Origin: an uncultured Bacteroidales bacterium
GTDB lineage: Bacteria; Bacteroidota; Bacteroidia; Bacteroidales; FEN-979
Length of the DNA stretch: 64,000 nt
Reading direction: 5' to 3'
Assembly: GCA_903887775.1 (NCBI GenBank)
Contig: CAISRB010000011.1
Coordinates: forward strand, 186,001-250,000
The notes below the pieces were generated by a model. The model saw only the letters and a program-made list of their open reading frames with translations. It was not told the DNA's origin and searched no databases. Made by a program: the position numbers and the translations under genes. Positions 2,464 through 32,508 of the stretch are shown piece by piece; within the stretch, counting starts at the first letter, position 1; each line of letters starts with the position of its first letter.

Positions 2464-2542
2464 TAAATGAGTTTTGATTATTGTGTAAAAAAAACAAGGC
2501 AAAATAAGCGAAAGAAGCGGTTTATTAGTAATTTTGACGATT

Positions 2543-4411: not shown

Positions 4412-4417
4412 GCGGGT

Positions 4418-6235: not shown

Positions 6236-6367
6236 GAAAAAGCGAAAGGCGAAAAGCGAAAAGCGAAATTTTTATTCAGATAAATTTCAAATATTTTTTT
6301 GCTTTTCATTCTATAACTTAACATTTATTCAATTATTTCGCTTCTCGCTTTTCACTTTTCGCTTTTA
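6236..6367. repeat. Imperfect inverted repeat of the GCGAAAAG family
   Basis: The left arm (about 6238-6269) is built of GCGAAAAGC-like steps. The right arm (about 6335-6366) is its reverse complement with roughly four mismatches, and about 65 bp of AT-rich sequence lies between. The right arm runs into the hydA stop codon. The same steps recur at 9645-9719 in the same operon. It could fold as a long hairpin in the hydA-hydC message. Confidence 0.7.
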
Positions 6368-8137: not shown

Positions 8138-8150
8138 AACGTTCCTTTTA

Positions 8151-9611
8151 TTAATTGATGATGATTGCGTTGAATTTGCATTTTTCCATGCAGGCTCCGC
8201 ACTTGATGCATTTCTCCTGGTCGATAAGATGGACCTGTTTGCGTTCCCCGCTGATTGCATTTACCGGGCAATTTCTTGCGCAAAGAGTACAACCTATGCA
8301 TTTTTCAGGCACTACCAGGTATTGCATCATCGATTTGCAAACTTTCGAGCGGCATTTTTTGTCCTTCACATGTTCGTGATATTCCCCGATGAAATTTTCA
8401 ATGGTGGAAAGTACGGGGTTGGGGGAGGACTGTCCCAGCCCGCAAAGAGAAGTGTCTTTTATCACGGTACTCAGGTTGCGCAACTTGTCGATGTCTTCCA
8501 TCGTTCCGTTGCCCTGGGTTATCTTTTCAAGAAGCTCGAATAAACGTTTATTCCCGATACGGCAGGGGGAGCATTTTCCGCAGGATTCTTCAACCGTGAA
8601 GCCAAGGTAAAATTTGGCAATGGCGACCATGCAGTCGTCTTCATCCATGACGATAAGGCCGCCTGATCCCATCATCGAGCCGGCTGCGATCAGGTTGTCA
8701 TAATCGATGGGCGTATCAAGGTGCTTTTTTGTGAGGCAACCACCAGACGGTCCACCTGTCTGGGCTGCCTTAAACTCTTTACCTCCCTGGATTCCACCGC
8801 CTATTTCGTAAATCACTTCACGAAGGGTAGTGCCCATCGGAACTTCAACTAGCCCGACATTATTGATCTTGCCGGCCAGTGCAAATACTTTTGTGCCTTT
8901 CGATTTCTCAGTCCCGATCGAAGCAAACCATTCCCAGCCTTTATTGATAATGACAGGTACGTTGGCAAAGGTTTCGACATTATTTACATTCGTTGGTTTT
9001 TTCAGGTATCCTTCTACGGATGGAAAGGGTGGTTTTACTGTTGGTTCTCCCCGAAGGCCTTCCATCGAGTGGATAAGAGCGGTTTCTTCACCGCAGACAA
9101 AGGCTCCGGCTCCGTAACGGATGTCTATATCAAAGTTAAAACCTGTTTGAAGGATGTTGTTTCCGAGCAATCCCATCTCCCTGGACTGTTTCATCGCAGT
9201 TTTAAGCCTTTCCACGGCCAGGGGATACTCAGCACGGATATATATCAGCCCTTTCGAAGCGCCGGTGCAATAGCCATTGATAGTCATAGCTTCAAGAACT
9301 GCATGGGGGTCCCCTTCGAGAATGGAACGGTCCATAAATGCTCCGGGGTCGCCTTCGTCAGCATTGCAGACAACGTATTTCTGATCGGCCTGCACCTTAC
9401 GGGTGATCTCCCACTTCAAACCGGCAGGAAATCCGCCACCACCACGGCCGCGAAGTCCCGACTTCTTCAATATTTCAATAACGGCTTCAGGTGAAAGCTC
9501 GGTTAACACTGTGGCAAGGGCCATATAACCATCACGGGAGATATAATCCTCGATCCGCTCAGGGTCTATGACGCCGCAGTTACGTAATGCTATTCTTATT
9601 TGTCTGGCCAT
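8151..9611 (-). CDS. hydB: HydB/NuoF NADH-binding subunit with C-terminal ferredoxin, locus 1
   Basis: 486 residues. NuoF core with FMN/NADH motifs GLRGRGGGGFPAGLKW and CGEETALIHSMEG, the 4Fe-4S motif ESCGKCSPCRIGN, and a C-terminal 2[4Fe-4S] ferredoxin (CIGCTLCARNCP, CIKCGACMEKC). Unlike locus 0 it lacks the N-terminal thioredoxin-like domain, which is coded as a separate gene just upstream (9721-10110). It ends 13 nt before the hydA ATG. In HydABC the flavin of this subunit is the site where NAD(H) electrons are split or joined. Confidence 0.95.
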   Translation of the reverse strand: MARQIRIALRNCGVIDPERIEDYISRDGYMALATVLTELSPEAVIEILKKSGLRGRGGGGFPAGLKWEITRKVQADQKYVVCNADEGDPGAFMDRSILEGDPHAVLEAMTINGYCTGASKGLIYIRAEYPLAVERLKTAMKQSREMGLLGNNILQTGFNFDIDIRYGAGAFVCGEETALIHSMEGLRGEPTVKPPFPSVEGYLKKPTNVNNVETFANVPVIINKGWEWFASIGTEKSKGTKVFALAGKINNVGLVEVPMGTTLREVIYEIGGGIQGGKEFKAAQTGGPSGGCLTKKHLDTPIDYDNLIAAGSMMGSGGLIVMDEDDCMVAIAKFYLGFTVEESCGKCSPCRIGNKRLFELLEKITQGNGTMEDIDKLRNLSTVIKDTSLCGLGQSSPNPVLSTIENFIGEYHEHVKDKKCRSKVCKSMMQYLVVPEKCIGCTLCARNCPVNAISGERKQVHLIDQEKCIKCGACMEKCKFNAIIIN

Positions 9612-17081: not shown

Positions 17082-18896
17082 CTAGTATCTCTTTCTGGGA
17101 GTGTAGTGGGTATGTAGCAGTTCATGGGATTTATGGCCTAAGGGGTGACCGAGAAATTCTTTGTAGATCAGCTGTACTTCCGGATTATCATGAGATTTGC
17201 GGATCGACATTCCCAGGTCTTCTTCGTAAATAGCCTGTTTTCTCTTTGTGCGGATGTCTTTGTTTGTGGGAATAGGTTGTCCGCCACCTCCAAGGCATCC
17301 TCCCGGGCATGCCATGATCTCGATAAAATGGTAATTGGCTTTACCATCTTTCACATCCTGCATAACCTTTTTGGCGTGGGCAAGACCATTGGCAACAACG
17401 CATTTCAGTTCAACGCCTTCAAGGAACTTCCATTCAGGCTTCGTCTTTTCAATTGTCAAAGAGGCTTCGCGTACTTCACCTTCGGTACCACGGACCGCAG
17501 TAATGTTAAGTCCTTCGAAGGGTATCTCTCTTCCGGTTACAACTTCATACACTGTGCGGAGAGCGGCTTCCATAACACCGCCAGTGGTCCCGAAAATCAC
17601 AGCAGCTCCTGTTGATGCCCCCATCAGGCTGTCGAAATGTTCTTCGGGTAATGCTTCAAAATCAAGGCCTGCCTGCTTGATCATGATTCCAAGTTCGCGG
17701 GTCGTCAGAACATAGTCAACATCCTTATAGCCGCTTGAACGCATTTCGGGGCGGTTGGCTTCAAACTTCTTTGCCGTACATGGCATGATTGAAACGGAAA
17801 CGACATTCTTCGCATCCAGTTTGGATTTCTCGCAGTAGTATGTTTTAACCAGGGCGCCGAACATCTGCTGAGGGGATTTACATGTCGAAAGGTTACCCAG
17901 GAATTCAGGGAAAGTATGTTCGATGAATTTGATCCAGCCTGGTGAGCATGATGTAAACATTGGCAGGGAAACATTGGGATCCTTTTCGAGCAAGGCCTTC
18001 TTGAGCCTGGTTAGTAATTCGTTACCTTCTTCTATAATAGTCAGGTCGGCCGTAAAATCGGTATCAAGAACTGCGCTGAAGCCGAGACGTTTCAATGCAG
18101 CAACCATTTTTCCGGTAACGATTTTTCCCGGAGGCATGCCGAGGGCTTCGCCAAGGGCTATACGTACGGCGGGAGCGGTTTGGACGACCACATGCTTCGT
18201 GGTATCATAAATGGCATCCCATACCTGGTCGATGTAATTCTTTTCAATAAGGGCTCCGGTCGGACAACGGTTCACACACTGGCCGCAATTGGTGCAAACC
18301 ACTTCAAACAACGGATGCTCATAAAAAGTGGAAATCTTCATATGATTCCCGCGATAAGCAACACCAAGTGCGCTTACACCCTGGAGTTCCTCGCAAGTCC
18401 TCACACAGCGCTGGCAGCGGATACAACGGCTGTCGTCCTTAATAATAGCCGTGTTGAACATGTCGATAGTGTACTTATGATCCGGGACCAGGTCAAGGAA
18501 CATATGGTCACCGGTAAGCATCTGAGAAGCAAGTGATTGAATCTCACAAATTCCGTTTTTATAGCATTTTGTGCAATCAGCGTTATGCTCCGATAAAAGA
18601 AGTTCCACAATATGTTTTCGGGCAAGCCTTACTTTCATACTGTTCGTATGAATGACCATGCCTTCTGAAGCCGGCGTTGCGCAGGACGCAGGCAGGGATT
18701 TCACCTTTTCCTGTTCCACGATACACACGCGGCAGTTACCTGCAACGCATAGGTCTTCATGGTAACAGAGTGTTGGGATATGTATATTAAGGTGGCGTGC
18801 GGCATCGAGTATCGTTGTGCCCTCGTCAACACTTACCTGAATTCCGTCAATAGTAAGATTGATCTTCTTTATACTTTCTTTCTTGGTGTTTTTCAT
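17082..18896 (-). CDS. hydA: [FeFe]-hydrogenase catalytic subunit HydA, locus 2
   Basis: 604 residues. Same layout as locus 1 HydA: [2Fe-2S] domain (CYHEDLCVAGNCRVC), His-Cys cluster region (EHNADCTKCYKNGICEIQ), 2[4Fe-4S] ferredoxin (CIRCQRCVRTC, CTNCGQCVNRCP), H-cluster domain. L2 (MPCTAKKFE, near 369) and L3 (MACPGGCLGGGG, near 525) are canonical, but L1 reads TSCSPGW (near 311), with serine at the second cysteine. It is clearly closer to the hydrogenase half of the fusion protein at 21085 (same L1 serine, same end LLHTHYT) than to locus 1. Last gene of hydC-hydB-hydA; 13 nt after hydB. Presumed NADH-coupled H2 enzyme. Confidence 0.93.
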   Translation of the reverse strand: MKNTKKESIKKINLTIDGIQVSVDEGTTILDAARHLNIHIPTLCYHEDLCVAGNCRVCIVEQEKVKSLPASCATPASEGMVIHTNSMKVRLARKHIVELLLSEHNADCTKCYKNGICEIQSLASQMLTGDHMFLDLVPDHKYTIDMFNTAIIKDDSRCIRCQRCVRTCEELQGVSALGVAYRGNHMKISTFYEHPLFEVVCTNCGQCVNRCPTGALIEKNYIDQVWDAIYDTTKHVVVQTAPAVRIALGEALGMPPGKIVTGKMVAALKRLGFSAVLDTDFTADLTIIEEGNELLTRLKKALLEKDPNVSLPMFTSCSPGWIKFIEHTFPEFLGNLSTCKSPQQMFGALVKTYYCEKSKLDAKNVVSVSIMPCTAKKFEANRPEMRSSGYKDVDYVLTTRELGIMIKQAGLDFEALPEEHFDSLMGASTGAAVIFGTTGGVMEAALRTVYEVVTGREIPFEGLNITAVRGTEGEVREASLTIEKTKPEWKFLEGVELKCVVANGLAHAKKVMQDVKDGKANYHFIEIMACPGGCLGGGGQPIPTNKDIRTKRKQAIYEEDLGMSIRKSHDNPEVQLIYKEFLGHPLGHKSHELLHTHYTPRKRY

Positions 18897-18909
18897 GATA
18901 GGAGTTACT

Positions 18910-20076
18910 TTAGTAAATCATTTCTTCTTTGAAGTTATAGACGATGGATGAAAATGAGTTGGCAACCGATTGTCCGAGGCCGCATTTTGCAGTTAACTTC
19001 ATGCTTTCGGATAGTTTCATCAGCTGTTCGAGATACTGTGATTTTTTATCACCTTTTTTTACTGCTTCAATACCCTTGCGAAGCTGCTGGCAGCCCACGC
19101 GGCAGGGAGTACATTGTCCACAGGATTCTTCTTCAAAGAATTCCAGATAATTGTGCAACACATTGTACATTGATCTGGAGCTGTTGAAAAGCATCATCGA
19201 ACCTCCTGTTGGCACCCCTTCAAATCCAATGACCGTATCCTTGAATTTTTTACGTGGGACGCAAAAGCCCGAAGCGCCTCCGACCTGGACTGCCTTCGTG
19301 TCACCGTCGCCGAACTCGTCAACAAAACGATCAAGGGGCATACCCAACTCAAGCTCGTAAATTCCGGCTATCGGAGTATCACCTGAAACTGAAAATACCT
19401 TGGACCCGCGTGAGTCGGTAGTGCCCAGCATCTTAAACTGGATGGGGCCGAGGCGCATGATCATCATGATATTCACAAAGGTTTCCACATTATTGATCAC
19501 AGTGGGTTTTCCAAGATATCCAAAAGTTGTAGGGTAAGGAGGTTTGTTCCTGGGTTCACCACGGTTCCCTTCCATCGATTCAAACAAAGCGCTTTCTTCA
19601 CCGCAGATATATGCCCCGCTGCCAAGCCTGATTTCTATCGAGAAATCAAGGCCGATGCTTTTGGCATTCTCGTGATACCCTTCAAGTTCTCTCAGGAGTT
19701 CCGGCAGGAGGAATTTATATTCACCCCTGAGGTAAATAAAACCTTTTTTAGCCCCGATTACCTTCCCGCATATCGCCATGCCAGAGAAAACTTTCCTTGG
19801 AACCCGGGTCAATATTTCACGGTCTTTGAAAGTGCCGGGCTCCCCCTCATCAGCATTGCAAACAACATATTTCTCATCTCCGGGGGCCTGAGCTGTATAT
19901 TTCCACTTCATGGCAGTAGGGAAACCTGCGCCACCACGCCCGCGCAGACCCGATTCCAGAAGGTCCTCAAGAATCTTGTCATTGGGGAGCTTTATCGTGT
20001 CGGCAAGAACCTTATATTTAACATTGGAATATTCTCCAAAAATAAGGTCAACTCGTTTTAATTTGGTATCAGACAT
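18910..20076 (-). CDS. hydB: Minimal HydB/NuoF subunit, locus 2 (no ferredoxin and no thioredoxin-like domain)
   Basis: 388 residues from the ATG at 20076, which has AAGGAG at a 7-nt spacing; a TTG six bases upstream is too close to that site. NuoF core motifs are intact (GLRGRGGAGFPTAMKW, CGEESALFESMEGNRG, ESCGQCTPCRVGC). It stops after the core: both the N-terminal thioredoxin-like domain and the C-terminal 2[4Fe-4S] ferredoxin of the other two HydB proteins are absent. In studied bifurcating enzymes these outer clusters take part in ferredoxin coupling, so this complex may be a simple NADH:H+ enzyme. That is an inference. Confidence 0.93.
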   Translation of the reverse strand: MSDTKLKRVDLIFGEYSNVKYKVLADTIKLPNDKILEDLLESGLRGRGGAGFPTAMKWKYTAQAPGDEKYVVCNADEGEPGTFKDREILTRVPRKVFSGMAICGKVIGAKKGFIYLRGEYKFLLPELLRELEGYHENAKSIGLDFSIEIRLGSGAYICGEESALFESMEGNRGEPRNKPPYPTTFGYLGKPTVINNVETFVNIMMIMRLGPIQFKMLGTTDSRGSKVFSVSGDTPIAGIYELELGMPLDRFVDEFGDGDTKAVQVGGASGFCVPRKKFKDTVIGFEGVPTGGSMMLFNSSRSMYNVLHNYLEFFEEESCGQCTPCRVGCQQLRKGIEAVKKGDKKSQYLEQLMKLSESMKLTAKCGLGQSVANSFSSIVYNFKEEMIY

Positions 20077-20097
20077 TGTCAATCTCCTTATGTTAAA

Positions 20098-20565
20098 TTA
20101 TTTATGCATATATTCACGTAATATGTCATGGACCTTCTCGGGTGTAAGACCTGAATAAGGTTTCTCATTGATCAGCATGGCGGGCCCTTCGTGACACCAG
20201 CCAAGGCAGTTGGTCTCAAGCAGGGTGAACTTTTTATTCGGGGTTGTTTCGCCGACTTTTATCTTCAGCATGTCTTCGATCGTCTGTACGATTGTCTTCT
20301 TGCCATGCATGTCACAGGTTATGGTCTTGCAAATACGGATCACAAATTGACCGCGGGGCTGTGTTTCAAGAAATGCATAAAAGGTTGCAGTACCATAAAC
20401 CTGAGCTGCAGAAAGATCAAGTTCCTTTGCAATTTCAGTCATGTCAAGGTCGGAAATAAAATTATTCTTCTCTATCACTCCCTGCAGAATTGGTATCAGG
20501 CTGGTACGGCTTCTTCCGTATTGCCCGACTAATTCACCGATGTAATTGTTGTTGTTTGTAGCCAT
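20098..20565 (-). CDS. hydC: HydC/NuoE-like [2Fe-2S] subunit, locus 2
   Basis: 155 residues, NuoE family, with cluster cysteines in CKTITC and CLGWC and the family motif YGTATFYAFL. First gene of the locus 2 operon, 21 nt before hydB. Note the gene order hydC-hydB-hydA here against hydB-hydA-hydC at locus 1. The spacer upstream carries a Rex-like operator and is shared with the fusion-gene operon. Confidence 0.93.
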   Translation of the reverse strand: MATNNNNYIGELVGQYGRSRTSLIPILQGVIEKNNFISDLDMTEIAKELDLSAAQVYGTATFYAFLETQPRGQFVIRICKTITCDMHGKKTIVQTIEDMLKIKVGETTPNKKFTLLETNCLGWCHEGPAMLINEKPYSGLTPEKVHDILREYMHK

Positions 20566-20660: not shown

Positions 20661-20698
20661 ATGAAGTTTTTTTTTTAACTTTACCAAAATAATTGAAA

Positions 20699-21088
20699 AT
20701 GAGCTCTTCGAACCACCGCCTTTTATTGCAATGGGTACTTTGGCTTATTGCTGTTCATTCCATTTGTTTTGGCATGGCATTGATTATTTTCCCTACAGGC
20801 TGGATAGAGTTTTTCGGATTTCAGCTCCGGGAAAAATTTTTCGCAGACCAGGGGGGAGTATTTCATTTGATCATAAGCCTTGCTTATATCATCGCTGCAC
20901 TTGATCCTGAAAATTCGAAAAAGTTTGTTTTTTTATCTTATATGACCAAATTTGCCGCAGCTGCATTTCTCTTTTCTTATTATCTGTTTGACCGGCCGAT
21001 CTTCATGGTTTTACTTTCAGGGGTTGGGGATTTGCTGATGGGCGTGGCAATACTCATTTCCTACAGGCTTTATATCAAATCATTATGA
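20699..21088 (+). CDS. Small four-helix membrane protein, coupled to the fusion gene
   Basis: 129 residues from the ATG at 20699 (an in-frame TTG lies 6 nt earlier). Four predicted membrane helices: WVLWLIAVHSICFGMALIIF, a second in VFHLIISLAYIIAAL, a third in FAAAAFLFSYYLF and a fourth in VLLSGVGDLLMGVAILISY. No cysteine or metal-binding pattern. The stop overlaps the start of the fusion gene (ATGA), so the two are translationally coupled. I do not recognise the family; DoxX-like is possible but not supported by a motif. It may anchor the fusion protein to the membrane. Confidence 0.7.
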   Translation: MSSSNHRLLLQWVLWLIAVHSICFGMALIIFPTGWIEFFGFQLREKFFADQGGVFHLIISLAYIIAALDPENSKKFVFLSYMTKFAAAAFLFSYYLFDRPIFMVLLSGVGDLLMGVAILISYRLYIKSL

Positions 21089-24000
21089 ATACCAGTCTTC
21101 CTTCAATTATCATCACAGGGGCCTCCGGATTTGTCGGCAGGTATTTTCTTGATTTTATTAAAGATCAGTATACGGTTTTTGCCATTGCCCGCCGATCAGC
21201 AAAAGAAGCAAATATCCCCGAGCATCCGAATATCCAATGGATCCAATGGGATATTGCACATTCAGCCCAGATCCAGGAAGTTTACAAATACATCCAGCTA
21301 AACGGGGGAGCGGACTACCTGTTACATCTGGCGGCTTTTTATGATTTCAGCTATTCGAATGATGTAGCTTATCAGAGAACAAACATTGATGGTACGAAAA
21401 ACATAATTGAACTGGCAAAGCAACTGAAAATAAAACGGTTTGTTTTCGCGAGTTCCCTGGCTGCCTGTAATTTCCCCGGACCCGGCAATACTATTACTGA
21501 AAAAACTTCGCCTGATGCTGATTTCGCGTATGCTAAAACAAAGAAGTTGGGGGAAGAAATGCTTCGGACTAATTCCAGTATTCTTCCGGCCATTGTAATT
21601 CGCTTTGCAGCAGTATTCAGCGATTTCTGCGAATATCCGCCTTTGTATAAGTTTCTCGGAACCTGGCTTTCAAAGGGCTACGACTCAAGAATACTGGGTG
21701 GAAAAGGAGAATCTGCCGTGCCGTATATTCATATTCATGACCTGGCCAGGCTGATCCTTATCGTTCTTCAAAAAAGCCATCTGTTGCCACAATTTGATAT
21801 TTATGCTGCCAGCCCAGACGGAAGCACTTCCCATAAAGAACTTTTTGAGATTTCGACCAGGAACTATTTTGGCGTCCCTGTAAAACCCCTCTTCATTCCA
21901 AGAATGCTTGCATATCCCGGTATTGCAGCGAGGATCATCATGGGAAAGCTTAAGCTTACTCCGGAGCCATTTGAACGTTTCTGGATGCTTAAATATCTGG
22001 ATCTTAAACTTGATACCGACGCATCCTACACCCGGCAGGTACTGAGCTGGGAACCACTGGCAAGGCTGAATTTGATGCGAAGGCTGATGTTCCTTCTGGC
22101 CAGGATGAAAAGTAATCCCCTGGAATGGCAGGTGAAGAATGAAGCCGCCTTGCGCCACATTTCAGTACGCACCAACCTGCTTATTTACGAAGTGCTTTCA
22201 AGGGACAAGGAAAAGCTGGTCAATATAATAGCAGCAAGGGTCAACTCCGAAGGAAATACTGTTGACCTTTCACATTACCAGCATATGGATATCCAGGAGC
22301 TTAACCTGATCCTGCTCACTCTTTATAATGTGCTTGCATCAACCATTCTCAATGGTGACCGCAGTCTTATCATCAATTATATGGATGATTTGGCACGGCC
22401 CAGGTTTGCAGAAGGGTTTACGGCGGATGAGATCAGCGCCATGCTGGAAATTTTCTCGGAGATCATAAGCAACCACCTCCTTCATTCAACAGATTATCAT
22501 TTTACAAAACAAGTGCTTTATGACCATATCAGCATTCCGATTCAGCTTGCCCAGGATGAAATAGCAGAGAAATATGACTTCCATCTGGGTCTTGCGAAAG
22601 AAGTTATTCAAAAGAAAAAAATTAAAGTCACAATAGACGGAGATGAGGTTTTTGTAGACGAGGGCCTTTCCATCCTTGATGCTGCCAGATCCCTTAAAAT
22701 CCATATTCCAACACTCTGTTACCATAAGGATCTTAAAATTGCAGGAAACTGCAGGATCTGCCTTGTAGAGATTGAAGGCTCCAGGCACCTTGTTGCCTCC
22801 TGTGCTACGCCTCTCGAAGAAGGTATGGTGATCTATGCAAATAGCATGCGTGTGAGATCGGCCCGAAAAACCATGCTCGAGTTATTGCTCGCCGAACATT
22901 TTACCGATTGTACCAATTGTTATAAAAACGGAAAATGCGAACTGCAAAACCTTTCCTCGGAGTTTAAGATCATTAATCCTACCTATATACCCTTGCACCA
23001 TGAGGAGAAGGTTCATCTTGATATCATGTCACCGGCTATGGTGAAAGATGACCGCAAATGTGTACGCTGTCAGCGTTGTGTGCGCACCTGTGCTGAAATC
23101 CAGGGTGTGAGTGCTGTTTGGGTGGCCCATAAGGGAGGGAAAATGAAAATATCTACGTACCTGGGCAAACCATTATATGAGGTTTTCTGCACGAATTGCG
23201 GGCAATGCATCGATCGATGCCCTACAGGCGCGTTAGTCGAAAAGAACTACATCGAGGAAGTCTGGAATGCCATATGGAATAAAAATAATCATGTGATCGT
23301 GCAAACTGCTCCTGCAGTGAGAGTCGCCATTGGGGAAGACCTGGGTATAGAACCCGGGAAACGTGTAACCGGAAAACTCGTCAGCGCTCTCAGAAGGCTT
23401 GGATTTGATACTGTCCTCGACACTGCATTCTCGGCAGATATCACAACTATCGAAGAAAGTGCGGAGCTCCTTGACAGGCTCAGGAGGAAACTTGACTTTC
23501 ATGATGATAGCGTGAAACTACCGATGATCACTTCCTGTTCCCCGGCCTGGATCAAGTATTGCGAGCATTATTTTCCCGACCTTCTGCCTCACCTTTCCAC
23601 CTGTAAATCTCCTCAGCAAATGTTTGGTGTACTTGCAAAAACCTATTATGCAAAAAAACGCCAGCTTAAGCCTGAGAATATTGTCACCGTATCCATAATG
23701 CCATGTACTGCCAAAAAGTTTGAAGCGGACCGCCCCGAGATGAGAGGCAGCGGATTTAAGGATGTCGACTATGTTCTGACCACCCGCGAACTGGCTATAA
23801 TGATCATCCAGGCAGGCATTGACTTCAAATCCCTGCCTAACGATCATTATGACGACCTGATGGGTAAGACTACAGGTGCAGGTGTCATTTACGGAGCCAC
23901 AGGTGGGGTCATGGAATCTGCCTTAAGAACTGTATATGACAAAATCACAGGCAGGGATATCCCGTTTGAGAACCTGATCATCAAACCGATCCGTGGCATG

Positions 24001-24399
24001 GATGGGGTTAAGGAACTCTCACTCCCCATTACTGATTGTATAGAGCAGTGGTCCTTTTTAAACGGGCTGGAGTTAAAAGTTGCCGTTGCTCATGGGCTGG
24101 CCAATGCAAAAACACTGATGCAGATGATACGCAGCGGCGATTCCCCCTATCATTTTATCGAGATTATGGCATGCCCGGGTGGATGCCTTGGCGGTGGGGG
24201 GCAGCCAATTCCCACCAACCCCGACATCCGCCTGAAAAGGGTACAGGCATTATATGCTGAAGAAATGGGAATTGATTTGCGCAAGGCACATGAAAATCCG
24301 GAAGCCATCGAAGCTTATGAAGAGTTTTTACTTGACCCTATGAGCCCGGTGGCCGAAGACCTGCTTCACACTCATTATACATCCAGGACAACCTACTGA
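21085..24399 (+). CDS. Fusion of extended-SDR epimerase, helical linker domain and complete [FeFe]-hydrogenase
   Basis: One uninterrupted frame of 1104 residues. Residues 1-349: NAD(P)-dependent epimerase/dehydratase with the Rossmann motif TGASGFVGRY, FASSLAA and an intact catalytic Y149-x3-K153 (YAKTK). Residues 350-508: a mostly helical domain without cysteines, somewhat like RsbRD-type N-terminal sensor domains. Residues 509-1104: full HydA with [2Fe-2S] (CYHKDLKIAGNCRIC), His-Cys cluster, 2[4Fe-4S] (CVRCQRCVRTC, CTNCGQCIDRCP), L1 TSCSPAW near 815, L2 MPCTAKKFE near 871, L3 MACPGGCLGGGG near 1027. The hydrogenase part is a close paralogue of locus 2 HydA. It has no HydB or HydC of its own in this operon, so it may borrow those of locus 2 or act alone. 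Substrate of the SDR domain unknown. I know of no described protein of this layout. Confidence 0.92.
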   Translation: MNTSLPSIIITGASGFVGRYFLDFIKDQYTVFAIARRSAKEANIPEHPNIQWIQWDIAHSAQIQEVYKYIQLNGGADYLLHLAAFYDFSYSNDVAYQRTNIDGTKNIIELAKQLKIKRFVFASSLAACNFPGPGNTITEKTSPDADFAYAKTKKLGEEMLRTNSSILPAIVIRFAAVFSDFCEYPPLYKFLGTWLSKGYDSRILGGKGESAVPYIHIHDLARLILIVLQKSHLLPQFDIYAASPDGSTSHKELFEISTRNYFGVPVKPLFIPRMLAYPGIAARIIMGKLKLTPEPFERFWMLKYLDLKLDTDASYTRQVLSWEPLARLNLMRRLMFLLARMKSNPLEWQVKNEAALRHISVRTNLLIYEVLSRDKEKLVNIIAARVNSEGNTVDLSHYQHMDIQELNLILLTLYNVLASTILNGDRSLIINYMDDLARPRFAEGFTADEISAMLEIFSEIISNHLLHSTDYHFTKQVLYDHISIPIQLAQDEIAEKYDFHLGLAKEVIQKKKIKVTIDGDEVFVDEGLSILDAARSLKIHIPTLCYHKDLKIAGNCRICLVEIEGSRHLVASCATPLEEGMVIYANSMRVRSARKTMLELLLAEHFTDCTNCYKNGKCELQNLSSEFKIINPTYIPLHHEEKVHLDIMSPAMVKDDRKCVRCQRCVRTCAEIQGVSAVWVAHKGGKMKISTYLGKPLYEVFCTNCGQCIDRCPTGALVEKNYIEEVWNAIWNKNNHVIVQTAPAVRVAIGEDLGIEPGKRVTGKLVSALRRLGFDTVLDTAFSADITTIEESAELLDRLRRKLDFHDDSVKLPMITSCSPAWIKYCEHYFPDLLPHLSTCKSPQQMFGVLAKTYYAKKRQLKPENIVTVSIMPCTAKKFEADRPEMRGSGFKDVDYVLTTRELAIMIIQAGIDFKSLPNDHYDDLMGKTTGAGVIYGATGGVMESALRTVYDKITGRDIPFENLIIKPIRGMDGVKELSLPITDCIEQWSFLNGLELKVAVAHGLANAKTLMQMIRSGDSPYHFIEIMACPGGCLGGGGQPIPTNPDIRLKRVQALYAEEMGIDLRKAHENPEAIEAYEEFLLDPMSPVAEDLLHTHYTSRTTY

Positions 24400-24420: not shown

Positions 24421-24906
24421 TCAGGATTTCTGAGATAGAAGCGCTTCGAGAAGAAATTTGTGGGTCTTTGAAAGGATGTCCGGATACCGTTTTCGCAGGA
24501 CCGGGCTTAGCTCCTCGCTGAATTCAAGATCTTCCGCTATTTCCACTGCTATTATCATGATTTCTGAAGGGAGCGGGTAATTCAGTTTGTTCCCGACTTC
24601 AAGAGCCGTAAAAAAGTTGATGTCATGAAGATTTGAAATGTGCATGGTTTCCCTGAAATCATCAGGAGAAAAGAAGTACACGGTCCCGGGTTTCCCGCCT
24701 GCGGTCCGGATAGCATCTATCATGAAAATTCGGGAATACCCTGAAATGGTCTCCATTAATTCCAATCCGCCGACGGCTGCCGTTTTGAAAGTGACTTCAG
24801 CCGGAAGGTCCATTTTGGTGAGGTCTCCAGCCAGTTTGGGTCCAATGCCATCATCAGTGAGAATGTCATTCCCTATGCCGAGCACCATGATTTTTTCTGT
24901 TGTCAT
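24421..24906 (-). CDS. [NiFe]-hydrogenase maturation endopeptidase
   Basis: 161 residues, HycI/HoxW/FrcD-type peptidase family M52. The N-terminal motif LGIGNDILTDDGIGP carries the conserved metal-binding acidic residues, followed by FMIDAIRTAG and the late HDINF region. It removes the C-terminal tail of the [NiFe] large subunit after nickel insertion. It is directly downstream of the large-subunit gene (12 nt), and that subunit has the matching tail after DPCFSCATH. Last gene of the operon; no hyp genes are in view. Confidence 0.9.
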   Translation of the reverse strand: MTTEKIMVLGIGNDILTDDGIGPKLAGDLTKMDLPAEVTFKTAAVGGLELMETISGYSRIFMIDAIRTAGGKPGTVYFFSPDDFRETMHISNLHDINFFTALEVGNKLNYPLPSEIMIIAVEIAEDLEFSEELSPVLRKRYPDILSKTHKFLLEALLSQKS

Positions 24907-24918
24907 AGTTATTTGCTA

Positions 24919-26379
24919 TTATCTTCTGAATGAATCAATAATGTTTCCTTCAATATCCCTTATGTTTAGAATCATCCTCATCTGGCCCGGCAGGGAATGA
25001 GTGGCACATGAGAAACAGGGATCATAGGCTCTGAAAGCCATTTCGATCATGTTCAGAGTGCCTTCGGTGATCTCGCTGCCTTTTTTGATAAGGCCCCGGG
25101 CAGCTTTTTTAATGGACATGCAGATAGCCGCATGATTGTTCGTGGTTCCTACAATCAGGTTGACTTTTCTGACCATGCCTTTGTCGTCGGTCCAGTAGTG
25201 ATGGGTTAGTGTTCCTCTCTGGGCTTCAACAATGCCAACACCTTCGCCCACTATTTTTCCCAATGGGGCGCGAAGCTCATTGCCGGTTATTTCAGGATCC
25301 ATGGCCAGTTCAAGGCAGTGCTCAGCTGAGTAAATCAGTTCGACAAGTCTGGCCCAATGCATGGCCATCGTTGCATGGACAGGTTTTCCCTGAAGGGTTT
25401 TAAACATAAACTCATATTCCTGCTGCGCCACAGCTGTGGCCATTCCGTCAGCAGCATTCAGTCTCGACAGAGGTGTCGCATGGTAAACCCCTGATTCCTG
25501 ACCTTCAGTAAATCCTTTCCAGCCAATCTTTTTAAGGTATGGGAACTTCAGGTATGTCCAGGGTTCAACCCGCTCTTCGACGAAATCAAGGTAATGCTCA
25601 GGCGAATATTTATAGAGTTCTTTACCTTTTGTATCTACTACTCTAACCTTACCGTCATAAAAATTGACCTTATTCTGCTCATCAACCAGTCCCATCGAAT
25701 GAAGGACTAATGAGTAGGGGCCGTTCATTATAAGATCAACATAGTCCTTATTGCCGAGTACCACATCCTTGAACAGCTGGATCGAAAATTTTGAAAATTC
25801 AACGAATCCTTCGGCCTTTTTTATGATATCATCTCTTTGTTCCGGGGTGATACCTTTTTTTACCCCACCGGGGGTATTCATGATAACATGGGTCTGGTGA
25901 CCACCAATCAGCGCTTGAATTTCTTGGGCAATCCTGCGTTGTTTGATAACTTCGGACCCAATTTGCAAACCCACTTTATTGATCACTCCGAGTATTGTTC
26001 TATCGACCGGGCTGGCAGTGGGACCCACAACGAAATCAGGTGCCGCGAGTGCATAAAAATGAACGATATGGCTGTGAACAAAGTGAGCCATGTAAAATAA
26101 TTCCCTTAATTTTTTGGCAGTCGGGGGTGGCTCCACACCAAAAACAGCATCTACCGCTTTGCCTGAAGCCATATGATGGCAGCCGGGGCAGACGCCGCAT
26201 ATTTTCGTGACGATGGAAGGAAGTTCCTCAACCGGCCGGCCTTCACAGAACTTCTCAAAACCGCGAAGTTCAGGGACCTGGAAGTAGGCATTCTCGACTT
26301 CCCCTTCGTCGTTAAGGAAGATCTCGATTTTCCCATGGCCTTCAAGCCTTGTAATAGGATCAATGCTGATGTGCTTCAT
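24919..26379 (-). CDS. mvhA: [NiFe]-hydrogenase large subunit, group 3 (MvhA-like)
   Basis: 486 residues. Nickel-iron ligands are intact: the N-terminal ICGVCPGCHH (C61, C64) and the C-terminal DPCFSCATH (C455, C458). A 25-residue tail follows the last histidine and should be cut off by the neighbouring protease. The N-terminus ISIDPITRLEGHGKIEI is standard. Context with MvhG, MvhD and HdrA places it with group 3c, cytoplasmic F420-non-reducing/Hdr-linked hydrogenases. The start overlaps the stop of mvhG by 4 nt. Oxidises or produces H2 and passes electrons to MvhG. Confidence 0.95.
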   Translation of the reverse strand: MKHISIDPITRLEGHGKIEIFLNDEGEVENAYFQVPELRGFEKFCEGRPVEELPSIVTKICGVCPGCHHMASGKAVDAVFGVEPPPTAKKLRELFYMAHFVHSHIVHFYALAAPDFVVGPTASPVDRTILGVINKVGLQIGSEVIKQRRIAQEIQALIGGHQTHVIMNTPGGVKKGITPEQRDDIIKKAEGFVEFSKFSIQLFKDVVLGNKDYVDLIMNGPYSLVLHSMGLVDEQNKVNFYDGKVRVVDTKGKELYKYSPEHYLDFVEERVEPWTYLKFPYLKKIGWKGFTEGQESGVYHATPLSRLNAADGMATAVAQQEYEFMFKTLQGKPVHATMAMHWARLVELIYSAEHCLELAMDPEITGNELRAPLGKIVGEGVGIVEAQRGTLTHHYWTDDKGMVRKVNLIVGTTNNHAAICMSIKKAARGLIKKGSEITEGTLNMIEMAFRAYDPCFSCATHSLPGQMRMILNIRDIEGNIIDSFRR

Positions 26380-27356
26380 ATTACCTTCCTCCCTAGGATA
26401 GAGCCGGGCAGGCTGAAACGATAGAACAGTCCGGCGGGGTCAACAATAGTTTCGATGATGTTATCAATTTCATCAGGATCATTGGAATTTATCATAGTTC
26501 CGATGGCTGCCATCATTTTTGCTCCCGGGTCGGTCGCTCCCGGAGGCGGGCCATAACATCCACGGCAAGGGGAATTCCCTTCCACACAGCGAACGCCGCA
26601 CCCGCTGCGGGTTGCAGGGCCCATGCAGATAACACCCTGCTCGATAAAACAAGTTTCTTTATCATCCTGGATCTCCCAGGGCCTGTAAAATTTTCTGACT
26701 TGTTTCTTGTCTGACTTTTTCCGCTTGCATTCATCACAGTTGGTCTTGTCATTGGCTCCGACGACCGAGCCGGCTGGCGGCAGCCCGATCCCGGTGACAA
26801 TCGCTGAAAAGACCTCGATGAGCCTTTCACTCTGAGGCGGGCATCCCGGAATGTAATAATCCACATCGACGATCTGATCGAGTGGAAACACATCGTTGAA
26901 CATTACCGGGATTTCCAGAGTTCCCTCTTTGACTGATGTACTGGTGACGGGGTAGGTCTTTTCGGGGTTGAAGGTCGATTCAGTTTCCTCATAAGCCCTC
27001 TTGAAGATGTCGTTTTTTGAAAAGAAATTTGCAAGGCCGGGGATACCCCCCATATAAGCGCAGGAACCATAGGCCACGAGAATTTTTGATTTCTGTCTAA
27101 GCACTTGTGCCATATGCTTATTCTCACTGTTGCGGACGGCCCCGTTAAAAAGCGTCAGATCGATCGATTTATCCGGCATGTTCTCCACATCCTTATACTT
27201 GATGTCCATCGCGATAGGCCAGAAAACAAGATCGGCAGCAGCAACTATATCGAGAAGTTTTTCATGTGTATCGAGCACCGAAACGCAACAGCCGCCGCAG
27301 GCAGCACCCCAGTATATTGCCAGTTTGAGCTTTGGTTTGGTAGGTTCCTGAGACAT
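26376..27356 (-). CDS. mvhG: [NiFe]-hydrogenase small subunit (MvhG-like)
   Basis: 326 residues. N-terminal proximal cluster motif YWGAACGGCCVSVLD, then CAYMGGIP, GCPPQSE, and a cysteine-rich C-terminal part (CDECKRKK, ICMGPATRSGCGVRC, CRGCYGPP) for the other iron-sulfur clusters. It has no twin-arginine signal, so the enzyme is cytoplasmic. It passes electrons from the NiFe site to MvhD/HdrA. Two nt separate it from mvhD. Confidence 0.94.
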   Translation of the reverse strand: MSQEPTKPKLKLAIYWGAACGGCCVSVLDTHEKLLDIVAAADLVFWPIAMDIKYKDVENMPDKSIDLTLFNGAVRNSENKHMAQVLRQKSKILVAYGSCAYMGGIPGLANFFSKNDIFKRAYEETESTFNPEKTYPVTSTSVKEGTLEIPVMFNDVFPLDQIVDVDYYIPGCPPQSERLIEVFSAIVTGIGLPPAGSVVGANDKTNCDECKRKKSDKKQVRKFYRPWEIQDDKETCFIEQGVICMGPATRSGCGVRCVEGNSPCRGCYGPPPGATDPGAKMMAAIGTMINSNDPDEIDNIIETIVDPAGLFYRFSLPGSILGRKVI

Positions 27357-27358
27357 AT

Positions 27359-27796
27359 TTATTTCGTTTTTAAGTGTTCAAATTCAAGAGTTTTCTTCAC
27401 TTTACCCGGACCAAGCTGAAGTATAGTTTTTGTCATCTCATTCACCAGTTCAGCAAATTGTTTTCCTTCGCTGGCACTGATCCATTCGAGCTTCAGCCGT
27501 TCTTTCTCAATGCCCATCTGGCTTACGAATTTCTCCAGCAGTTTAAACCGCCTGAGGCATTTATAATTGCCTTCCTGGTAATGACAGTCACCAGGATGAC
27601 ATCCGCAGATAAGAATACCATCAGCCCCTTCTTTAAAGGCTTTCAGGATAAAAGTGGGTTCAATCCGGCCTGAACACATGATACGGATGATACGCACATT
27701 CGGGGCATAATGAAGCCTTGAAGTGCCTGCCAGGTCGGCGCCGGTATAGGCGCACCAGTTGCACAGGAAAGCTACGATTGTGGGTCTGAAATTCAT
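27359..27796 (-). CDS. mvhD: MvhD-type [2Fe-2S] electron transfer subunit
   Basis: 145 residues, methyl-viologen-reducing hydrogenase delta subunit family, usual length. Conserved cysteines in FLCNWCAYTGADLAG, MCSGRI and CGCHPGDCHY. MvhD bridges MvhG and HdrA in methanogen Mvh-Hdr complexes, and is fused to HdrA in QmoB of sulfate reducers. Here it is a separate gene 10 nt after an hdrA-like gene, consistent with the bridging role. Confidence 0.94.
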   Translation of the reverse strand: MNFRPTIVAFLCNWCAYTGADLAGTSRLHYAPNVRIIRIMCSGRIEPTFILKAFKEGADGILICGCHPGDCHYQEGNYKCLRRFKLLEKFVSQMGIEKERLKLEWISASEGKQFAELVNEMTKTILQLGPGKVKKTLEFEHLKTK

Positions 27797-27806
27797 ACTG
27801 TAAAGC

Positions 27807-29531
27807 TTAATACGACATTGACATTATACCTTCGATTTCCGAGAGAATCTGACGGTCGGTGAAATGTTTGCTTGTGATAGCTCCTGCGGGGCAGCACCCG
27901 CCGCAGGTTCCGCAGCCTTTGCAGAGTACTTCATTAACTACCGAAGCTTTTTTAATTTCATCATATGATACTGCGGAATAAGGGCATACGCTGATACAGG
28001 TCTGGCAGCCGCAGCAAAGAGATTCATTTACGATGGCCGTAGTGACTTCAACCGGCACAGAACCCTGTGCGATGGTTGCAAGTATCCTGGCCGCTGCAGC
28101 TTTAGCCTGGGCCACAGAATCCGGGATATCCTTAGGGCCCTGACATGTGCCAACAATATATACTCCCCCGGTAGTAGTGGCAACCGGATCCAGTTTCGGA
28201 TGTTTCTCGATAAAGAACTGGTTGCCGCATAAACTTACACCAATGGTACGGACAACTTCCTTGACATTTTCATGAGCTTCCATATTGACCATAAGGATCA
28301 CCATATCCACAGGGACTTCTATGTCGATCCCCGAAAGAAGCTCATTCATTTCGATCAGCATATTGCAATCATCATCACGGTGGGCTTCGCGTATCACGGG
28401 CAGACGTTTCTGCTGGTCGTACATTAAAAAAATGATTTGCTTGTGGGTGGTCATCGCATAGAATTCCTCATGCCCTTTCCCGTATGCCCTCATATCGGCA
28501 TATATTTCATAAATATTGGCCTCGGGCAGGGCAGCGCGGATTTCATGAACAAACTTCAGGGCAACCATACAGCAAACCCTCGAACAATATTCATGGTATT
28601 TCCTGTTACGGCTGCCAACGCAATGGATGATGGCTACATTCCTGGGTTCCTTGCCGTACTTTGTAAGTATCCTGCCTGCCCTGAGATTATCCTCGAATTC
28701 AAGTGAAGTTATCACATCCGGGAATTTGCCATAGCTGTACTCTTCGATTACTGAGGGGTCGAATGGTTTAAGACCAATGGCCGCTATGATATTGCCAAAC
28801 GTGATCTCGGGTTGTTCTGCACCCTTTTGAGCAAGCCTGGCCCTGAAGTTTCCGATGTAGCCATCAACTTCCTTTACTTCGGTATTAAGAGATACACTGA
28901 TCATGGGATGATTCTCAACCCGTTGTATCATCGGCCCTATCATCTGCTGAGCGCTCGAAAGGTGAGGGAATGTGAGGTCGAACCTGGCAACCTGGCCGCC
29001 AAGATGGTCAGCTCTTTCGATCAGATAAACTTTTTTACCTGCATTTGCGATCTCAAGGGCTGCAGACATTCCTGAAATGCCCCCGCCAATGATCAGAGTG
29101 GCCGGGTCAACATTCACTGTGCGTTTCTGTAAGGGTTCATGGTATCTTACCCTCCTGATGGCAGCAATAACCAGGTCAATGGCTTTTAATGTTGCTTCCG
29201 AGCGATCGGTATGCACCCAGGAATCCTGCTCCCGTATGTTTGCCATCTCGAAAAGATAAGGATTGATACCAGCCTTTTCACAGGCATTACGGAAAGTGAG
29301 TTCATGGATTCGGGGGGAACAGGCAGCTACAACAACCCGGTTCAGGTTATGCGATTTTATATCTTTAATGATAAGATCCTGCCCTGGGTCGGAACACATA
29401 TATTTGTAGTTTTTCGACAGTACCACATACGGCAGGGTGCTGACTTCTTTAGTCACAGCTTCCACATCCACCATTTTGGAGATGTTGGTGCCGCACCAGC
29501 AGAGGTAAACCCCAATTCTCGGTTCTTCCAT
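27807..29531 (-). CDS. hdrA: HdrA-like flavoprotein with N-terminal and C-terminal Fe-S domains
   Basis: 574 residues. N-terminal HdrA domain (VYLCWCGTNISKMVDVE with C11, C13, plus C46 and C71), FAD-binding domain with GGGISGMSAALE at about 149, the HCVGSRNRKYHEYCSRVCC motif, and a C-terminal 2[4Fe-4S] ferredoxin (CCGCQTCISVCP, CKGCGTCGGCCP). It lacks the ferredoxin insert and the DCxxCxLTPKM motif found in its paralogue at 30703. In Mvh-Hdr complexes HdrA holds the bifurcating flavin. The pair of unequal HdrA proteins recalls QmoA/QmoB. Confidence 0.93.
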   Translation of the reverse strand: MEEPRIGVYLCWCGTNISKMVDVEAVTKEVSTLPYVVLSKNYKYMCSDPGQDLIIKDIKSHNLNRVVVAACSPRIHELTFRNACEKAGINPYLFEMANIREQDSWVHTDRSEATLKAIDLVIAAIRRVRYHEPLQKRTVNVDPATLIIGGGISGMSAALEIANAGKKVYLIERADHLGGQVARFDLTFPHLSSAQQMIGPMIQRVENHPMISVSLNTEVKEVDGYIGNFRARLAQKGAEQPEITFGNIIAAIGLKPFDPSVIEEYSYGKFPDVITSLEFEDNLRAGRILTKYGKEPRNVAIIHCVGSRNRKYHEYCSRVCCMVALKFVHEIRAALPEANIYEIYADMRAYGKGHEEFYAMTTHKQIIFLMYDQQKRLPVIREAHRDDDCNMLIEMNELLSGIDIEVPVDMVILMVNMEAHENVKEVVRTIGVSLCGNQFFIEKHPKLDPVATTTGGVYIVGTCQGPKDIPDSVAQAKAAAARILATIAQGSVPVEVTTAIVNESLCCGCQTCISVCPYSAVSYDEIKKASVVNEVLCKGCGTCGGCCPAGAITSKHFTDRQILSEIEGIMSMSY

Positions 29532-29543
29532 AATTTTTGTTTT

Positions 29544-30689
29544 TCAGGGATGACCAGATTCTCTCGGAACAGCGTATCTTTTAAGTTGTTGAAAATACAC
29601 GGCAAAAGGCCTGTAGGCAAGATGTGACCATTTCGAAAATGGCACTTCGATAAGTATCATAGGAACCAGCACCGCCATGTGGGTAATATAAGATATATAA
29701 GTGGCCAGCGGCATCCCATTGATCCTGAAAATATGGATCAGTATGCCGGTAATGGCGGTAAGGGTCAGCATTGCCAGGAAAAGCCAGTCACTGATATGCG
29801 AAAACAGGAATTTGACATCCTTCCTCTGAATACGGCCGATGATAGCCACGAACAAACCGAAGAGCAGGCCGAAGGTTGCATAGTAACCCAGAAGCCGTTG
29901 CGGATGCCATATCGGGAGGATCTTCTGTGTCTGGAACCACGGGAGGTATACCACAATTACAATGAACATTATAGTGTACCCCGACATCAGAAACCAGTGT
30001 GACAGCCAGTAACGTTTATCATCGCATTTGTTGAATTTCGGCTGTACTGCGAAATTGAAGATCAGGAGCCAGAATTCCCTGATATGAACCCACAGGCTAA
30101 CCTTCATATTGCCGTATTTCCAGATGATCTTGTAATACATCCGTAATATATTGGAGATGAGCAACGATGCCACTACAGCAGCCATGCACCAGTCAAATGT
30201 CTCAACAACATGGATCGGGGCGAAAGCATTTAACTGCACACCTCCCTGGGCTGTCAGCTCTCTTGTGAAATGATATCCCATCGATGGGAGCAATACCAGA
30301 AATGATAACACAACGAGAATGGCAAATACAATTATGAAGCCAAGTTCCCACAATTCAGAAGTGTAAAATTTCTTTGACAAACCAGTCCAGTCGTAGATTG
30401 ATGTAAGATATCTTCTCAGCGACATCATCAGTTCGCCCGGATTCGCATCCCTCGGGCAGGAGGTTGAGCAGTCCCCGCAATAATAACAAAGCCATGGCTC
30501 AACACTGGCTTCCAGCTCATCTTTGAGGCCCATCTGCATCAGGCGGATTTTTTTCCTGGGGAAAAGAAAGCCTTCTTCCGAAAGCGGGCATTGAGCCGTG
30601 CAGGTACCGCAATGGTAACAGGCATTCCAGTCACCAATCCCAAACTGGATCAGCTGGCTCCTCAATTCCGGTTGAACACGTACACTCAT
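29544..30689 (-). CDS. QmoC-like subunit: HdrC-type ferredoxin fused to a membrane cytochrome-b-like domain
   Basis: 381 residues. N-terminal HdrC-type 2[4Fe-4S] domain (C24, C27, C30, C34 and C68, C71, C74, C78), then from about residue 110 six predicted membrane helices, with histidines in or near several of them (HWFLMSGYTIMFIV, ITHMAVLVPMILIEV) that could bind heme as in HdrE/NarI proteins. This is the QmoC layout (HdrC plus HdrE), and would let the soluble HdrA/Mvh module exchange electrons with menaquinone. No CCG-domain HdrB is fused or nearby. Gaps of 12-13 nt to both hdrA-like genes show one operon. Confidence 0.9.
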   Translation of the reverse strand: MSVRVQPELRSQLIQFGIGDWNACYHCGTCTAQCPLSEEGFLFPRKKIRLMQMGLKDELEASVEPWLCYYCGDCSTSCPRDANPGELMMSLRRYLTSIYDWTGLSKKFYTSELWELGFIIVFAILVVLSFLVLLPSMGYHFTRELTAQGGVQLNAFAPIHVVETFDWCMAAVVASLLISNILRMYYKIIWKYGNMKVSLWVHIREFWLLIFNFAVQPKFNKCDDKRYWLSHWFLMSGYTIMFIVIVVYLPWFQTQKILPIWHPQRLLGYYATFGLLFGLFVAIIGRIQRKDVKFLFSHISDWLFLAMLTLTAITGILIHIFRINGMPLATYISYITHMAVLVPMILIEVPFSKWSHLAYRPFAVYFQQLKRYAVPRESGHP

Positions 30690-30702
30690 TGGTTGTTCGA
30701 TT

Positions 30703-32508
30703 TTATAAAGCTACATTCGATAATTCTTCTATTTTCCGCAACACGTTCTCAAGCGAAACCGATGCCTGGTCGTTGCGTATCTTACCTTTCAGAATGCTTT
30801 GAATAACCCTGGCTGCAGCAGCAGATCCCTGGGCTACACAATCAGGTATGTCTTTTGGACCCTGGCAGGTACCGGCCAGGAAAATCCCCCCCCGGCAGGT
30901 TCCCGTTGGGTCAAGATTGTAATGCGCTTCTTCAAACCATCCGTCGGTATTCGTGGGAATATTCAGCATTTCACTGATCTTCCCGGCATCCTCGCCTGCT
31001 TCAAGGCCTGCGGATAGAATGACCATATCGACCAGGTTTTCAAGGATTTCACCCTTTAGGATATCCTCTCCCCTGAGAAACAACTTTTCTCCATGTTGTT
31101 CAACTTTTGCTGTTTTGCCCCTGATTATGGAAACATCCTCCTGCCTGATCCTTTCATAGAACTCTTCATAGCCTTTGCCAAAGGATCGCATGTCGATGAA
31201 GTATTCGAAGATCTCCGCCTCGGGCAATTTTTCCATAATAAGGTGTGCGAACTTCAGGGAGTACATACAGCATACCCTCGAACAGTATTTATTGAAGTTC
31301 TTATCACGGCTGCCTACACAATGTATAATTGCGATCTTCTCAGGCCTGGCGGTTGTCGTATTGAATATCCAGTTCCCTTTTTTATCCTGGCTCCTGAAGT
31401 GAATATTACCCCCGGTGGGGCCCGAGGCATTCAACAGTCGTTCAAACTCAAGCGAGTTGAGCACATTTGGGAAACGCCCGTACCCGAACTGAGTCATCCG
31501 CCCGGCATCGAAAAGTTTATATCCGGTGGCTATAATGATATTCCCTACATTGATTGTTACAACTGAGTCTTGTTCGTCCAGGTCAATACAGCCGGGGACA
31601 GGACAAGCCTTCACGCAGGCTTTGCATTTTCCGTTTTTCAGATATATGCAGTTTTCCGCGTCAACCAGGTACTTATTGGGAACAGCCTGTGGAAAAGGGA
31701 TATAGATTGCTTTCCTCATGCAGGTACCCGCATCAAACTCACTTGGGGCCTGGGCAGGACATTTCTCGGCACAGGTTCCGCATCCGATACAGGTCTTCAC
31801 GTTCACCTTCCGGGCTTTCTTTAATACTTTAACATTAAAATCGCCAGGCTTTCCGTTAACCTCAATAATCTCTGAGTAGCTCATCAGCCTTATATTCGGA
31901 TGCTGGTTTACCTCCACCATTTTCGGAGTAAGTATGCAGGCAGCGCAGTCCAGGGTTGGGAAGGTTTTGTCGAACGTCGCCATTTTCCCGCCTATCGTAC
32001 CGCTTTTTTCAACCAGATACACCATATTGTTGCTGTACGCAATTTCGAGGGCAGCCTGGATTCCTGAGATTCCGCCTCCGACTACGAGTGTTGCATTGTT
32101 CACCGGCAGTTCATCAGGGATCCCGGTAAATTCATAAGGAACACCTGCTATGATCGAAGCAAGAACTATTTTAAGCCGTTCCGTGTTGAAAACCATACCG
32201 GTACAGTAATCGTTGAAACTTGCAAGAAGGACCTTCTCCGGATCTTTGCCTGCAAGTGTCATGGCTTTAGAAAACAATGCCTTAACCGTTCCCGGCATAA
32301 GGCCGGCAATAATCAGCCGCTCAAAATTATTCTCCTTTATTTTCTGCAGGATGTTCTTTTCATTCCAGATGAAGCCGGAATAAGTGTAGGCTTTTACGAT
32401 GTTTGGAAATGAAAATGAATATCTGATTAACTCTGAATAATCTATGGGGTCCGGGTACAAACCCTCAGGGTTGTAGAAAAACATCCCGGTGATCTCGGTG
32501 TTTTTCAT
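30703..32508 (-). CDS. hdrA: Second HdrA/QmoA-like flavoprotein, first gene of the Mvh/Qmo-like operon
   Basis: 601 residues. The N-terminal domain has lost the usual CxC cluster motif. FAD-binding GGGISG at 144-149, the HdrA cluster motif DCAACILTPKM at 187-197, an inserted 2[4Fe-4S] ferredoxin (C240-C250 and C287-C302), the HCVGSRDKN/YCSRVCCM motif, and GTCQGPKDIPDCVAQG near the FAD. It has no C-terminal ferredoxin. The features it has are the ones its paralogue at 27807 lacks, so the two probably form a heterodimer. The promoter region carries a perfect Rex operator and an FNR-like box. Confidence 0.93.
   Translation of the reverse strand: MKNTEITGMFFYNPEGLYPDPIDYSELIRYSFSFPNIVKAYTYSGFIWNEKNILQKIKENNFERLIIAGLMPGTVKALFSKAMTLAGKDPEKVLLASFNDYCTGMVFNTERLKIVLASIIAGVPYEFTGIPDELPVNNATLVVGGGISGIQAALEIAYSNNMVYLVEKSGTIGGKMATFDKTFPTLDCAACILTPKMVEVNQHPNIRLMSYSEIIEVNGKPGDFNVKVLKKARKVNVKTCIGCGTCAEKCPAQAPSEFDAGTCMRKAIYIPFPQAVPNKYLVDAENCIYLKNGKCKACVKACPVPGCIDLDEQDSVVTINVGNIIIATGYKLFDAGRMTQFGYGRFPNVLNSLEFERLLNASGPTGGNIHFRSQDKKGNWIFNTTTARPEKIAIIHCVGSRDKNFNKYCSRVCCMYSLKFAHLIMEKLPEAEIFEYFIDMRSFGKGYEEFYERIRQEDVSIIRGKTAKVEQHGEKLFLRGEDILKGEILENLVDMVILSAGLEAGEDAGKISEMLNIPTNTDGWFEEAHYNLDPTGTCRGGIFLAGTCQGPKDIPDCVAQGSAAAARVIQSILKGKIRNDQASVSLENVLRKIEELSNVAL

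Follow-up and report, generated by a model that had tools for sequence, protein, structure and literature searches.

Why should a [FeFe]-hydrogenase carry a short-chain dehydrogenase/reductase (SDR) at its N-terminus? The question is raised by a gene in a 64,000-nucleotide stretch of contig CAISRB010000011.1, here called the window, from an uncultured Bacteroidales bacterium whose genome comprises 3.83 Mb in 33 contigs. The gene (21085-24399, forward strand) has an ATG start, 1104 codons and no internal stops, and its product joins, in one polypeptide, an extended SDR, a middle domain and a complete M3/A6-type [FeFe]-hydrogenase. An earlier note on this DNA had proposed that an SDR and a full M3 hydrogenase share a single chain; the uninterrupted open reading frame, the Pfam and NCBIfam matches and the homologues described below uphold that proposal.

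Domain layout of the fusion protein

The extended SDR occupies residues 1-338 (21085-22098) and matches Epimerase (PF01370) over residues 8-234 with 96.4 bits, against a cut-off of 20.9. It contains the GASGFVG glycines at residues 12-18, S123/S124 and the Y149-x3-K153 motif. All 17 rows of an alignment of SDR plus globin-fold regions share G12, G15, G18, R36, R37, S123, S124, Y149 and K153. Arg36-Arg37 are located just after the second strand, and arginines after the second Rossmann strand usually favour NADP(H); these residues suggest that the SDR prefers NADP(H). The earlier note had called the domain sugar-nucleotide-epimerase-like. This is correct as to the extended SDR family and does not extend to the named equivalogs listed: the sugar-nucleotide epimerase/dehydratase models score far under their cut-offs (HpnA 56 versus 368, GalE 47 versus 262), the other SDR rows among the 25 of 40 families listed also fall below theirs, and the label therefore holds only at the family level.

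The middle of the protein (residues about 361-500, 22165-22584), previously read as a helical linker, forms a separate domain with the globin fold of the RsbR/RsbRD sensor type. Its kinship to RsbRD_N (PF14361) is established by profile-profile comparison, in which the match is far above controls, and by a fold match to the N-terminal domain of the stressosome protein RsbR (3zta). The Pfam model itself matches 5 of 13 rows, at best with an E of 0.0052, and its gathering score is not reached; RsbRD_N is over the Pfam cut-off in none of 21 genomes, the window's own included.

The remainder of the chain is a HydA-type hydrogenase. Residues 513-1101 score 814 bits against the NCBIfam model FeFe_hydrog_A6 (NF040763; cut-off 765), which places it in group A6. 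By Pfam and alignment, it begins with a [2Fe-2S] Fer2_4 domain (residues 511-586, 22615-22842; C545, C556, C559 and C573), followed by a His-Cys [4Fe-4S] NuoG-type domain (NADH-G_4Fe-4S_3; residues 594-629, 22864-22971; H605, C609, C612 and C618) and a two-[4Fe-4S] ferredoxin-like domain with eight cysteines (Fer4_Nqo3; residues 650-717, 23032-23235). The H-cluster domain (Fe_hyd_lg_C, 319 bits; residues 736-1038, 23290-24198) carries the motifs TSCSPAW (C818, S819), MPCTAKK (C874) and MACPGGC (C1030, C1034), and an Fe_hyd_SSU tail (residues 1047-1101, 24223-24387) completes the protein. The first H-cluster motif had been given as TSCCP; the sequence has TSCSP, as do the neighbouring HydA and Acetobacterium woodii HydA1.

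The 16 accessory-cluster cysteines and histidines, together with C818, C874, C1030 and C1034, are kept in all 14 fusion rows aligned (13 intact, plus the partial locus L057). Position 819 is serine in those 14 rows and in six of seven stand-alone HydA rows, and cysteine in the fusion from genome G136. The matching residue is serine in A. woodii HydA1 (7q4v) and cysteine in Thermoanaerobacter kivui HydA1 and in clostridial CpI. Judging by its Fe-S chain and H-cluster motifs, the fusion is probably competent as a hydrogenase. All 17 genomes that carry the fusion or its remains have a HydG match that exceeds the cut-off of the model.

Conservation and origin of the fusion

Intact frames with the same layout, 1103-1105 residues long, are found in 13 further genomes (the length at one locus, L055, was taken from an in-frame ATG at 1714). 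Twelve of these genomes belong to the window's family, and the thirteenth, G136, to another family of the same order. Damaged or partial fusions are found in three further members of the family: that of G026 has a frame break (L050), that of G025 begins at a contig start and has a stop (L057), and that of G014 has lost its middle (L058). The ratio of nonsynonymous to synonymous substitution (dN/dS) was taken from the near pairs for which it could be computed, with synonymous sites near saturation: three pairs gave 0.03-0.04 in the hydrogenase part, one pair 0.04 in the SDR, two pairs 0.06-0.08 in the middle domain and three pairs 0.02 in stand-alone HydA.

An assembly join at the junction of SDR and hydrogenase, which the earlier note had named as a possible objection, was considered and is refuted by these comparative data, because the layout recurs intact in 13 other genomes. 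More generally, although G026, G025 and G014 carry broken or partial versions, a mis-assembly or frame error joining two genes has next to no chance of accounting for 14 intact frames from separate genomes in two families and for the dN/dS of 0.03-0.08.

The SDR and globin-fold part is older than the fusion and exists without a hydrogenase. Proteins of about 550 residues with this pair of domains are found in other Bacteroidota. At a threshold of E 1e-60, 17 of 393 genomes sampled from the order have a match, with five fusions (G000, G009, G010, G017 and G136) and 12 unfused proteins; in a sample of 395 genomes from the phylum there are 12 matches, 11 of them unfused and the sole fusion that of G000. 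One further stand-alone protein comes from an Acidobacteriota genome (L044), where its gene adjoins HypF and a HypB-like gene. Within the order, 10 of 12 examined stand-alone loci adjoin Mvh-like or HydABC-type [NiFe] genes, two of these (G186 and G268) only a HycI protease gene; the loci of G127 and G140 are away from hydrogenase genes. At locus L106, the SDR gene shares one base with the gene downstream of MvhA-HycI. The stand-alone genes outside the order (L089-L098) have varied neighbours, some of them radical-SAM, Nitro_FeMo-Co or Mrp-type.

Fusions form one group in a tree of the SDR part (37 rows; support 74/88) and in trees of the HydA part (support 78/79 with 27 rows and 66 with 64 rows), and those of the window's own family form a fully supported group. 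In the 64-row tree, the nearest kin of the fused HydA are the stand-alone A6 HydA proteins of the same genomes. It is thus most likely that HydA was duplicated and that the copy became attached behind an existing SDR-globin gene in one event; an approximately unbiased (AU) test does not exclude a separate fusion event in G136 (p 0.095).

A small gene accompanies both forms. Directly upstream of the fusion, and overlapping its start by four bases, 20693-21088 (forward strand) encodes a hydrophobic, membrane-type protein of 131 residues that weakly resembles DUF4345 and DUF6632. Seven of 16 aligned rows match DUF4345 (best E 0.00037) and five match DUF6632 (best E 0.00059); the window's own protein scores 16 bits against DUF6632, where the Pfam gathering score is 27. 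Where its presence could be tested, the membrane gene lies close to all 16 fusions and to 20 of 22 stand-alone SDR-globin genes. It is missing at L044 and L104, and L057 and L094, at contig ends, are outside the count. At the four loci from family f15, the opposite strand carries it, up to 2.8 kb away. Residues H22, H58, Q53, K86 and D113 are invariant in all 16 rows; speculatively, they could form a cofactor or quinone site.

Possible roles of the SDR-globin module

The fusion lies between two further sets of hydrogenase genes, both on the reverse strand. On one side are divergent HydC-HydB-HydA genes of the A6 type (17082-20565), whose HydA (17082-18896) resembles the fused HydA more closely than any other paralogue in the genome does, at 63% identity. 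The HydB at 18910-20082 is short (390 residues), with FMN and NADH_4Fe-4S parts only, and lacks the C-terminal ferredoxin part that is present in the HydB at 8151-9611. On the other side (24421-32508) are genes for HycI, an MvhA-like [NiFe] large subunit, an MvhG-like small subunit, MvhD/FlpD, an HdrA-like protein, a QmoC-like protein and a second HdrA-like protein. The [NiFe] subunits are supported by NiFeSe_Hases and Oxidored_q6 matches; the HdrA and QmoC models remain below their own cut-offs. Together, these genes combine a [NiFe]-hydrogenase set with a Qmo/Hdr-like module in a Bacteroidales relative. The surroundings form a dense hydrogenase island, with four full-length HydA-type proteins (the fusion, 17082-18896, 6365-8260 and L004, just before the window). 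NuoF- and NuoE-like genes of the HydB/HydC type are near each of the last three. A gene for a protein with PAS and Fe_hyd_lg_C domains, followed by a SpoIIE-type phosphatase gene (2534-5602), resembles an H2-sensor pair.

Among 43 genomes of the family, the SDR-globin part, intact or broken, is found in 16, all 16 with MvhA; MvhA occurs alone in one (G011) and neither occurs in 26, a distribution (Fisher p 6e-11) of adjacent genes among related genomes, and hence not independent evidence of function.

Our tentative preference, from among several readings, is that the hydrogenase is held in place and regulated by an older sensor/anchor module that binds NADP(H). This module, consisting of the SDR, the globin-fold domain and the membrane protein, would dock the hydrogenase at the membrane and gate it there. 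Older than the fusion and placed with hydrogenase genes within the order, the module resembles an anchoring and sensing device. The retained cluster cysteines, the HydG matches and the class-specific changes in the fused HydA given below are in keeping with this reading. In this model, the SDR would bind NADP(H), and the three module components would dock the hydrogenase beside the Mvh-Hdr/Qmo-like complex. The state of NADP(H) or of a ligand might then gate hydrogenase activity or assembly, while electrons between H2 and its partner would run via the HydA Fe-S chain and bypass the SDR. The fully specified form is more doubtful. It would be a redox-state-controlled membrane hydrogenase that docks on a small membrane protein next to the Mvh-Hdr/Qmo-like complex, with an RsbR-type globin and an NADP(H)-binding Rossmann domain jointly gating H-cluster chemistry from within the chain; no description of such a kind was found. 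If the gating idea is true, a hydrogenase would be controlled by NADP(H) or ligand state within its own chain. NAD(P)-based sensing, one of three options that the earlier note had offered, is compatible with this model and close to it.

Several observations weigh against the model of docking and gating. Association with the Mvh-Hdr/Qmo-like operon could simply come from the linkage of adjacent genes among related genomes. That operon and HycI are present in G011 (L140), where nothing in the surrounding 19 kb matches the fusion or the membrane gene, which makes this genome a natural one for comparison. Outside the order, comparison with the window's proteins places none of 10 stand-alone loci beside hydrogenase genes, apart from a short match of ferredoxin type in L089 and matches of kinase/regulator type in L098. 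The suggested NADP(H) preference is drawn from two invariant arginines and a general rule, and the catalytic residues are intact, although an SDR with a purely structural or sensing role could do without them. NDUFA9, a complex I subunit that offers an analogy discussed below, is absent among 54 Protein Data Bank (PDB) matches and among the 60 of 153 listed in another PDB search; a further listing consisted of hydrogenases only. The predicted full-length model has a pTM of 0.45, with an uncertain arrangement of domains. Finally, Cys300 of clostridial CpI, the equivalent of position 819, is presumably a ligand of [4Fe-4S]H and is replaced by serine here, although A. woodii HydA1 also has serine.

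It may instead be that the fused HydA joins the neighbouring HydB and HydC (18910-20565) as a second bifurcating complex, with the SDR module as a localising passenger. The identity to the neighbouring HydA, the A6 score above its cut-off and the complete N-terminal Fe-S chain are all in keeping with such an alternative subunit, and all 16 fusion-bearing genomes of the family also have a stand-alone A6 HydA. However, so do 23 of the 27 that lack the fusion, and the stand-alone protein hence does not track it. The N-terminal end of HydA faces its partners in HydABC, and it is at this end that the SDR and globin-fold domains are attached. Furthermore, class-specific changes that separate fused from stand-alone HydA affect 13 of 142 conserved positions in the accessory Fe-S part, a higher share than the 7 of 260 in the H-domain and tail (p 0.007, indicative only, as the 16 fused and 34 stand-alone rows are related), which points to a changed partner of the fused HydA. 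An alternative subunit is accordingly an unlikely explanation, if one to be kept in mind.

Direct coupling within the chain, in which the SDR would use electrons from H2 to reduce NADP+ or an organic substrate, is improbable. That the SDR motifs and catalytic residues are invariant throughout the 17 aligned rows, and that the SDR module lies at the [2Fe-2S] end, would suit it, and HydR provides a published precedent for in-chain coupling (PMC11926857). Against this, the SDR-globin protein also occurs without a hydrogenase, and SDRs work by hydride chemistry. Fe-S chains carry single electrons, whereas SDRs transfer hydride, and Pfam and NCBIfam revealed neither a flavin domain nor any other domain within the polypeptide that would convert between one- and two-electron transfer. 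Direct H2/NAD(P)H chemistry, another of the earlier options, is doubtful for this last reason.

A role as an H2 sensor, with the H-cluster sensing H2 and the globin/SDR part relaying the signal, also has little probability. The RsbR-type sensor fold of the middle domain and the regulators nearby would fit such a role, but the hydrogenase part belongs to A6, a catalytic type, Pfam finds no kinase, phosphatase or DNA-binding output domain in the fusion, and the more usual sensor layout is already present at 2534-5602.

Relation to known systems

No report of a fused epimerase or SDR and [FeFe]-hydrogenase was found in open-licence PMC full text, and the words "fused", "SDR" and "epimerase" are absent from the text of a paper on the HydABC family (PMC9304861). 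As far as this literature goes, the novelty suggested for the layout in the earlier note is supported for this particular combination, although database records of these proteins may exist, and [FeFe]-hydrogenases gain a domain layout not found in print. As a kind, it has a precedent. HydR of Clostridium perfringens is a chain of [FeFe]-hydrogenase and rubrerythrin for which H2-dependent peroxide reduction was shown, and thus likewise combines a hydrogenase with a second catalytic-type domain (PMC11926857). The partner in HydR is a metal enzyme, whereas the fusion, known from its sequence, has an SDR and a globin-fold domain instead.

For the role proposed here, complex I offers an analogy of place: its 39-kDa subunit NDUFA9 belongs to the SDRs, keeps NADPH bound at the membrane junction and touches NDUFS1, the homologue of NuoG (PMC8762328). 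NDUFA9 differs in being a separate subunit with no globin domain, and the likeness drawn here is one of position. The N-terminal sensor globins of the stressosome proteins RsbR and RsbRD (3zta) share the globin fold and profile similarity with the middle domain, which differs in being joined to an SDR and a hydrogenase and in scoring below the Pfam cut-off. The fusion ties an uncharacterised Bacteroidota module of SDR, globin and membrane protein to hydrogen metabolism through a naturally occurring gene fusion, and hints at a new means of hydrogenase anchoring or control in an uncultured Bacteroidales-related lineage.

Among hydrogenases, CbA5H (8zqd, 9f46) is a group A enzyme with an extra N-terminal domain that differs from that of the fusion. 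The closest comparison is with the HydA subunits of HydABC from T. kivui (8a6t) and A. woodii (7q4v), the best PDB matches of the fusion, which have the same HydA domains in the same order and, in A. woodii, the same TSCSP motif. Compared with these subunits, the fusion has 510 extra N-terminal residues, comprising the SDR and globin-fold domains, and no HydB/HydC operon of its own.

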